64,000 bases of DNA from an uncultured Pelagibacteraceae bacterium (GTDB lineage: Bacteria; Pseudomonadota; Alphaproteobacteria; Pelagibacterales; Pelagibacteraceae), in contig CACJOY010000001.1 of assembly GCA_902595125.1 (NCBI GenBank), positions 1 to 64,000 on the forward strand, in the 5' to 3' direction. This document shows, in pieces, positions 50,326 to 51,819 of the stretch. The notes under the pieces are model-generated. The model did not search any database. It was not told the origin of the DNA and saw nothing but the letters and a program-made list of their open reading frames with translations. The first letter of the stretch is position 1. Every line of letters starts with the position of its first letter. The position numbers and the translations under genes are program-made.

Positions 50326-50526
50326 TTAATCAGTCCCCCATTTAATTTTGCTCCAAATTCTTTCATGAAAATAGTAAAAAAAGAGTGGAACTATTGATCC
50401 TACACCTAGTATTCCTGCACCCGTAAATGTTCCAGTGTAGATGTAGCCAAAAATTACCCAATAAACAAAAATGATAAATCTCCAAGAAAAAGTTTTAGCT
50501 ACTGATCTTATCTTTTTATCCGCCAT
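50326..50526 (-). CDS. DUF2061 small membrane protein
   Basis: This 66-aa protein has two hydrophobic helices and the DUF2061 opening KIRSVAKTFSWRFI, plus FYYFHERIWSKIKWG at the end. Its function is unknown. The start codon follows directly on a hairpin and an eight-plus-base U-tract, an arrangement described in the leader entry. It is convergent with the TauE/SafE gene, 3 bases apart. Confidence 0.8.
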   Translation of the reverse strand: MADKKIRSVAKTFSWRFIIFVYWVIFGYIYTGTFTGAGILGVGSIVPLFFYYFHERIWSKIKWGTD

Positions 50527-50565
50527 AAAAAAAAAGAGGTGATTTCAGTCTCCCTCCATCACCTC
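50527..50565 (-). promoter_or_regulatory. Structured leader: 8-bp hairpin plus T-tract immediately before the DUF2061 start codon
   Basis: Reading on the minus strand: GAGGTGAT, a 14-base loop GGAGGGAGACTGAA, ATCACCTC, then nine T and ATGGCG. The stem (50536-50543 with 50558-50565) plus T-run is terminator-like. The loop holds the purine-rich GGAGGGAG, the only good Shine-Dalgarno, which suggests an RNA switch that decides between termination/occlusion and translation. No known riboswitch class is recognised. Confidence 0.6.
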
Positions 50566-50736
50566 ACAGATTAAGATTAATTGATTCTTTACAATTTTAT
50601 GAACACTTAATAGTTGAATTTTTGGAGTTAATGGTTTGAATTTATATAATTTATCAAAGTTTTCACTTAAAGATTGTACTCAATTTAACCACAACATATG
50701 TATGCAACAAACACAAAAAATTGGTATTTTATAATT

Positions 50737-51819
50737 ATGAGTAAAAAAAAGATTAAAAAAAAAATTCAAAACAATTTCAAAATTTTTAAATCATTCCCAG
50801 AGAGTATTATTAATGAAACAAAAGATAAAATAGGAAATTTTTATCAAAATTTAAAAAAAGATCGAGAAAAAAGAAAATTAAGAACAGAAAAAGAAAAAAA
50901 AATTCAAGAAAAAAAGGAAATTCAACAACAAAAGAAGCAAGCCCAAAAAGATAGAATAAACAGAGCCAAAGAGGAGAAACTTCAAATATTAGCTCAAAAA
51001 AAATTAATTACAGAAAATGAGAAACAAATTCAAAAAAATGAGGAAAAAAGAAAAAAAATTGAGGCCAAAAGTTTAAAAATAGAACAACAAAAAATTAAGG
51101 ATGAGGAAGCTAAAAAATTAAGAGAAGATGCCAGAAGATTAAAGGAAGAAGAATTAAGAATAAAAATTTTAGAGAGACAAAAAATTAGAGAAGAAAAAAA
51201 TAGAGTTAAATTAGAGGAAATAAAATCTAAAGAGTTAGAGGCTCAGAAACGAAGAGAAGACAAAGAAAAGGAGAGACAAGAAAGAAATAGATTAAGAGAT
51301 TTAGAACGACAAAAAAAATTAGATGAGGAGCAAAAACTAAGAGAAGCCGCTAGAAAATTAAAATATGAAGAGGAAAAATTAAGAGAAACTGAAAATAGAT
51401 TAAGACAACTTGAAATAAATAGACAGCAAGAGATAGAAAGACAAATCTTAAAAGAACAAGCTGAGCAGAGAGCTAAAGAGGAAGAGCTTAGAGAAAAAGA
51501 ACAGCAAATTAAGGCTGCTGAAGCTGAAAAATTATTAAAAGAAAAAGAGGAGAGAGAAAGGATTGAAGAATTAAGAAAAGAACAAGAAAAACAAAGGCTT
51601 ATTGAAGAGGAGAGAGCTAAGTTATTAAAAGAGAGAGATGAAGAGGAAGAAAGAATTAAAGAGGAAAATCGAAGAATAAAAGAATGGGAGGATAAATTTG
51701 ATCAAGAACAGAGAACAAGAGAGGAAGAATTAATAAAAAAATTTTACAGCGATAATTCAGAAACACCTAAGATGGAAAATGAGATTAATGATAATCAGGA
51801 TAAAGAGGAGAAAAATTAA
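50737..51819 (+). CDS. Long charged coiled-coil / single-alpha-helix protein, unknown function
   Basis: The preferred start is the ATG at 50737 (MSKKKIKKKIQN); the track start at 50698 adds a weak AT-rich extension. The product is about 360 aa with almost no hydrophobic core. It starts basic (KKKIKKKIQNNFKIF) and continues as a 300-residue run of R/K/E/Q/L such as EEKLREKEQQIKAAEAEKLL and KRREDKEKERQERNRL, then an acidic tail. This predicts one continuous helix or coiled coil. No membrane helix or known domain is visible, so homology to TolA, myosin-like or other named families should not be assumed from composition alone. Its stop abuts that of phosphomannomutase. Confidence 0.65.
   Translation: MSKKKIKKKIQNNFKIFKSFPESIINETKDKIGNFYQNLKKDREKRKLRTEKEKKIQEKKEIQQQKKQAQKDRINRAKEEKLQILAQKKLITENEKQIQKNEEKRKKIEAKSLKIEQQKIKDEEAKKLREDARRLKEEELRIKILERQKIREEKNRVKLEEIKSKELEAQKRREDKEKERQERNRLRDLERQKKLDEEQKLREAARKLKYEEEKLRETENRLRQLEINRQQEIERQILKEQAEQRAKEEELREKEQQIKAAEAEKLLKEKEERERIEELRKEQEKQRLIEEERAKLLKERDEEEERIKEENRRIKEWEDKFDQEQRTREEELIKKFYSDNSETPKMENEINDNQDKEEKN

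Follow-up and report, generated by a model that had tools for sequence, protein, structure and literature searches.

A conserved RNA hairpin shared by a predicted small RNA gene of Pelagibacteraceae and by pelagiphages

A short hairpin in the genome of an uncultured Pelagibacteraceae bacterium is a genuine conserved RNA structure, and the same structure is carried by cultured phages of the SAR11 group. The hairpin lies on the minus strand at 50527-50567 of the stretch of DNA that was analysed (GCA_902595125.1, contig CACJOY010000001.1, positions 1 to 64,000; this whole stretch of 64,000 nucleotides is called the window). The explanation that we favour, and hold to be reasonably probable, is a conserved hairpin module that occurs as a stand-alone RNA in the host and as copies within phage mRNAs, with a single SAR11 factor recognising its invariant top. 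Few cells and viruses in the ocean are as abundant as SAR11 bacteria and their phages, whose regulation at the RNA level is poorly known.

The hairpin and its conservation in Pelagibacteraceae

The hairpin in the window is built of a covarying stem, with its 5' arm (GAGGTGAT) at 50565-50558 and its 3' arm (ATCACCTC) at 50543-50536, and of an apical loop of 14 nt (GGAGGGAGACTGAA, 50557-50544) that is near-invariant in host loci and the same in phages. Within these 14 nt, a GAGA tetraloop (50549-50552) is predicted to sit above the pairs GG/CU and a 3x3 internal loop GGA/GAA. Nine T (50535-50527) follow directly 3' of the stem and resemble the U-tract of an intrinsic terminator. The ATG of a 66-aa DUF2061 gene (50326..50526, minus strand; PF09834, E=1.9e-9) comes straight after them at 50526, so that hairpin, T run and start codon (50565-50526) are arranged as the initial annotation had described. 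This gene adjoins the hairpin here and lies outside the conserved unit. The 41-nt RNA folds with a free energy of -14.4 kcal/mol (z -2.69; 5 of 200 shuffles were equally good), and with its flanks the z-score reaches -3.28, with 0 of 200 shuffles as good. The plus-strand fold at the same site is unremarkable (z -1.64). A search of the whole window against Rfam 15 returned one tRNA only; at the hairpin region no family reached its threshold, the best being AniS with 19.7 bits against 50 required, in agreement with the annotation's remark that the structure belongs to no recognised class.

Conservation and covariation of the hairpin are far above the level of chance. Among 195 host loci, 24 distinct arm pairs were found, and the interior pairs are complementary in all of them. 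The host alignment (A2) holds 63 both-side changes, compared with 23 for shuffled and 2-7 for slid alignments. The interior pairs include 21 G.U and 0 A.C, which identifies the minus-strand RNA as the working strand. The apical 14 nt are identical in 139 of the 195 distinct host loci, and a further 44 differ by an A at the first base. Nearly all loci fit the consensus RGAGGGAGACUGAA; divergent lineages have RGCGGGAGACUNAA, and two loci have GGAGACCGAGAGGCGAA. Every one of these variants can be fitted to a 3x3 internal loop of tandem G.A type, a short helix and the GAGA tetraloop. A failure of stem or loop to be conserved would have spoken against the initial annotation; both are conserved, and the covariation search that it had proposed found strong covariation of the stem in SAR11 genomes and in viral contigs alike. 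A short open reading frame across the loop (ATG GAG GGA GAC TGA) was considered and rejected, as it is lost in variants with the stem-loop junction GTAGAG.

Two functions had been ascribed to the hairpin. The loop purines, taken at first for a ribosome-binding site, stand ~20-30 nt from the DUF2061 ATG, and the predicted fold engages them in non-canonical pairs and the GAGA tetraloop; this is a poor position for a Shine-Dalgarno role. As to termination, a GC-rich stem followed by a U-tract is present in the window and in 119 of 192 host loci (at least six T), and 50 of the 192 have fewer than four T. Thus, termination does not appear to be the conserved function or the reason for the conservation of the loop, and the 3' end of the RNA is uncertain in the lineages without the tract. 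At several U-less loci (L074, L151, L128, L134), a tail rich in pyrimidines that could pair with the purine loop (GTCTCC/GGAGAC) is often seen. This hints at an alternative pseudoknot between loop and tail in some of these lineages; as a general feature the pseudoknot was rejected, being inconsistent across them.

The RNA is widespread within the family. A covariance model built from 50 diverse sequences matches 189 of 297 Pelagibacteraceae genomes at E<=1, most of the strong matches being at 1e-9 or better. At this loose limit 11 of 14 genera are represented, and strong matches occur in five genera besides that of the window; weak matches (E ~0.1-1) in genomes without the RNA (L266-L273) were judged to be due to chance. 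When 201 genomes of the genus were searched at the DNA level, many contained strong matches, among them genomes that have no DUF2061 gene, and the loci read in the genus number one per genome, each with an extended conserved block. Outside the family the searches were negative: an exact-pattern search of 385 alphaproteobacterial genomes found matches in the window's genus only, and the covariance model, run on 117 genomes of the order, found them only in two genera of Pelagibacteraceae. Two matches in Firmicute contigs (L098, L106) were rejected, their stems not being complementary. Some near-complete Pelagibacter genomes lack the RNA, which is thus dispensable there. In one genome of a sister genus (G058, contig 4), two matches to the RNA model are found 3.3 kb apart, at 104353-104446 and 107623-107717.

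Promoter block and genomic setting of the host copy

A second conserved block lies upstream of the hairpin and has the order of a promoter. With near-fixed spacing it comprises a box of consensus CAAYTAWTAMGWGTT, a TTnATA-like -35 element, a GANTC site, three bases and a TAnnnT element. In the window, on the minus strand, the box reads CAACTATTAAGTGTT (50602..50616) and is ~70-98% conserved at most positions, with fixed spacing, across 199 sequences; it is probably an activator or UP-type promoter element. The -35-like element TTCATA (50598..50603) matches TTGACA at 4 of 6 positions, its second-position T being 98% conserved. The GAATC in the spacer between -35 and -10 (50583..50587) is a site for CcrM methylation whose G, A, T and C are 99-100% conserved in the 199 sequences, one distant genus (L263) having GACTC. 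The -10 element TAATCT (50574..50579) is conserved at its T (99%), A (99%) and last T (84%) in the same set, and it becomes an exact TATAAT in divergent genera. A generic consensus promoter scan of the window called no promoter at this block. In 191 of the 199 loci, 5-9 nt separate the end of TAnnnT from the first paired base, which would place the start of transcription at the foot of the hairpin. With the -10 box taken to set the start and the U9 tract the end, the predicted product is an RNA of ~40 nt (50527..50567, minus strand) consisting of the hairpin and its U-tract. From this arrangement we infer a sigma-70 promoter that belongs to the hairpin RNA itself.

The combination of box, GANTC and TAnnnT at the given spacing was found a single time in each of the genomes searched. 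A regulon of the upstream box was also sought, and none was found; the other exact matches to the box look like chance, most of them falling in apparent coding sequence. A stem between TTAAGTG and CAYTTAA in the upstream block was rejected on inspection of alignment A1 by eye: its pairs are broken in many sequences, and the block was therefore read as promoter DNA.

The GANTC site raises the question of cell-cycle control. A protein of the GcrA family is present, and a GANTC site near the -10 and -35 elements in a genome with GcrA is, at the level of sequence, the layout of a GcrA/CcrM promoter. GANTC has been shown to be methylated in Pelagibacter (PMC9516812), and the binding of GcrA in Caulobacter depends on GANTC methylation (PMC3667746). 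Together these points make cell-cycle control of the hairpin RNA plausible, by analogy with Caulobacter. In the window's own assembly, the GcrA gene (contig 3, 19889-20367) is represented by two partial matches that overlap, one of them with stops, perhaps through a frameshift or an assembly error.

The neighbours of the RNA are not constant. In the window's genus, it sits between a phosphoglucomutase/phosphomannomutase (PGM) gene and a convergent TauE gene, and in many genomes it is found beside TauE with no DUF2061; other genera have different neighbours. PGM abuts TauE in several of the near-complete genomes that lack the RNA. Of 192 distinct loci, 60 have a DUF2061 gene no more than 120 nt downstream and 125 have none downstream; in one genome (G043) DUF2061 and the RNA are ~10 kb apart. 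The constant position upstream of one gene that marks a riboswitch or leader is thus lacking for DUF2061, and its control is not the general role. Of the compact RNA switch proposed at the outset, the conserved structured RNA stands; the control of DUF2061 is not supported, given the other neighbours, the phage copies and G043. What is found instead is the profile of an independent small RNA gene: a promoter of its own as judged from sequence, a covarying structure and changing neighbours. The hairpin is accordingly predicted to be the conserved core of a small Pelagibacteraceae RNA gene of ~40 nt.

In 33 loci the ATG follows the T run directly or almost directly. Unless DUF2061 has another promoter, it would there be read from the promoter of the hairpin and through the hairpin itself, and a local attenuation of DUF2061, which looks derived, is possible in these loci. 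On the other side of the RNA gene, a lysine- and glutamate-rich, coiled-coil-like gene without a Pfam match (50698-51819, plus strand) separates it from the phosphomutase gene. Many relatives, not all, have this insertion, and the PGM/RNA junction gives the impression of a small variable site.

Copies of the hairpin in phages

The same hairpin was found in viruses. In scans of IMG/VR, it occurs in the GAGGGAGACUGAA form in more than 120 viral contigs and in the GCGGGAGACUNAA form in more than 120, in each case among the matches listed; these contigs are marine, and most are without host assignment. The inner three pairs are complementary in 181 of the 183 distinct viral contexts among the matches listed. 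Of the first six viral matches, five were rejected as chance, the stem being present in L206 only. In an alignment of 22 phage and 15 host hairpins (A4), 98.6% of pair cells are paired and 82 both-side changes are seen, with 7 of the 8 outer pairs varying on both sides; the covariation score is 0.69, compared with 0.19 for shuffled and at most 0.16 for slid alignments.

The hairpin is present in at least 10 cultured pelagiphages. It stands at the junction of capsid and tail tubular A genes in HTVC031P, HTVC142P and HTVC168P and on the lysozyme/primase side in HTVC019P, HTVC131P, HTVC304P and Jormungand; HTVC022P, HTVC201P and Ran also match. When the window's own 44 nt were compared with 50,697 phage records, four pelagiphages and one uncultured Mediterranean fosmid phage were recovered and nothing else, in a short-query BLAST that could overlook diverged copies carried by phages of other hosts.

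The setting of the phage copies differs from that of the host gene. The bacterial promoter block is absent from the viral copies, as checked for the GAGGGAGACUGAA form. Among the matches listed, 131 of 166 distinct phage copies lie between co-directional ORFs, as intercistronic hairpins do, with median distances of 24 nt from the preceding stop and 15 nt to the following start. A U-tract is present in 17 of the 166. The junctions include those of capsid and tail tubular A, of lysozyme or amidase and primase, of phrog_2402 and primase (phrog_21866), and of Hsp20 and the next gene; a further site is the leader of a terminase operon. Ten viral contigs (L407, L409, L410, L434, L439-L441, L464, L470, L474) carry the hairpin with a T run, for the most part hundreds of bases away from any co-directional gene. 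These copies look like a phage-encoded, stand-alone tiny RNA.

Proposed role and comparison with known systems

How could one hairpin serve both as a bacterial RNA and as a part of phage mRNAs? The hairpin is a module in which a GC-rich, covarying stem of 7-11 bp presents a near-invariant top made of the purine-rich 3x3 internal loop, two pairs and the GAGA tetraloop. In Pelagibacteraceae, this module would form the entire body of a ~40-nt RNA. Transcription of the RNA would begin at a sigma-70 promoter of its own, which holds a CcrM site in the -35/-10 spacer, and would stop in most lineages at the RNA's own hairpin and U-tract. In SAR11 phages, the module is embedded in mRNAs, mostly ~24 nt past one stop codon and ~15 nt short of the following start. 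The same near-invariant top is displayed on varying stems in a host gene and at unrelated phage junctions, and one cellular partner, an RNA-binding protein or an RNase, is its best explanation; the sharing suggests a partner common to bacterium and virus. At phage gene junctions the most likely action of the module is in cis, with recruitment of the factor to process, protect or tune the mRNA. The host RNA most likely acts in trans on the availability of the partner, binding it and so setting its free amount. Host and phage copies could also serve unrelated ends. A tentative extension, which we regard as possible rather than probable, is a host-phage recognition system in which the ~40-nt RNA, tied to the cell cycle through GANTC, is a decoy that competes with the phage mRNA hairpins for the GAGA-top factor, and so tunes phage expression or defends against it.

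Could simpler functions account for the hairpin? It might be a plain mRNA-end or processing element, a site of RNase cleavage or protection in cis only, with the host copy a very short transcript that ends in this way. The tight distances of the phage copies between capsid, lysozyme, Hsp20 or phrog_2402 and the next gene fit such a role, and there is a parallel in T7, which has a terminator at the junction of capsid and gene 11 with RNase III sites nearby. A barrier or cut site should not, however, require a near-invariant 14-nt top across the host and several phage groups, and the host copy has a conserved promoter of its own and no downstream message in most genomes; this explanation is considered unlikely. 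A mere intrinsic terminator between convergent genes would explain the stem and U-tract of most loci and their frequent position between PGM and convergent TauE, but would leave the invariant loop and the conserved promoter block without a reason, and the tract is lost from the same 50 host loci and scarce in the phage copies. This makes a mere terminator highly improbable. The same holds for a cis-acting switch that governs DUF2061 by read-through of the hairpin: the contact of T9 and ATG in the window, the near-contact in the 33 loci and the lack of any other apparent DUF2061 leader there speak for it, and the many loci without DUF2061 downstream, the separation in G043 and the unrelated genes beside the phage copies speak against it.

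The host RNA might alternatively be a domesticated phage element, or an anti-phage decoy that titrates a factor needed by phages. Its usual single copy, its clean presence or absence among hosts and the occurrence of the module in the host's own phages are in line with this origin, yet the conservation of the RNA in several genera, together with a promoter of its own, suggests that its role in the cell is an old one, and we think such an origin or decoy role distinctly improbable. The favoured reading remains a module with a shared cellular partner. A near-invariant module in a bacterial gene and in phage mRNAs points to a specific RNA-binding partner that could be fished for directly, and the module offers a convenient way into the study of how phage genes are expressed in the ocean.

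Several known systems resemble this RNA in part. The SAR11 RNAs of Meyer 2009 (PMC2704228) and Stav 2019 (PMC6429828) are likewise conserved, intergenic and found by comparison. The table and motif sections of Meyer 2009 do not describe the hairpin locus. Stav 2019 analysed the SAR11 genome HIMB5 and mentions one unnamed sRNA and two structured candidates (HRC-1, HRC-2); the host RNA locus may already be among them, and priority for it is not certain. The sharing of the hairpin by host and phage was not mentioned in the literature searched. The cell-cycle-linked alphaproteobacterial sRNA CcnA of Caulobacter (PMC8959179) is similar in having its own promoter, a short non-coding RNA and a terminator-like 3' end, and the GANTC/GcrA setting of the SAR11 RNA resembles alphaproteobacterial cell-cycle control. 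Compared with sRNAs that end in intrinsic terminators, the SAR11 RNA has little beyond its hairpin and no free seed region; in place of an antisense seed it has a near-invariant structured loop that is common to phages.

The GGA motifs in the hairpin loop recall the sponges of CsrA/RsmA (CsrB, RsmY/Z), from which the SAR11 RNA differs in being a single hairpin. A CsrA sponge was the obvious candidate on account of these motifs, and it was rejected because CsrA was found in 0 of 13 SAR11 genomes by a search that was positive in three known carriers. The RNase III sites and T-phi of T7 are alike in their position between phage genes, including capsid and tail tubular A. The SAR11 module is set apart from them by an apical 14 nt that stays near-invariant across unrelated junctions and phage groups, and by its copy in the bacterium.
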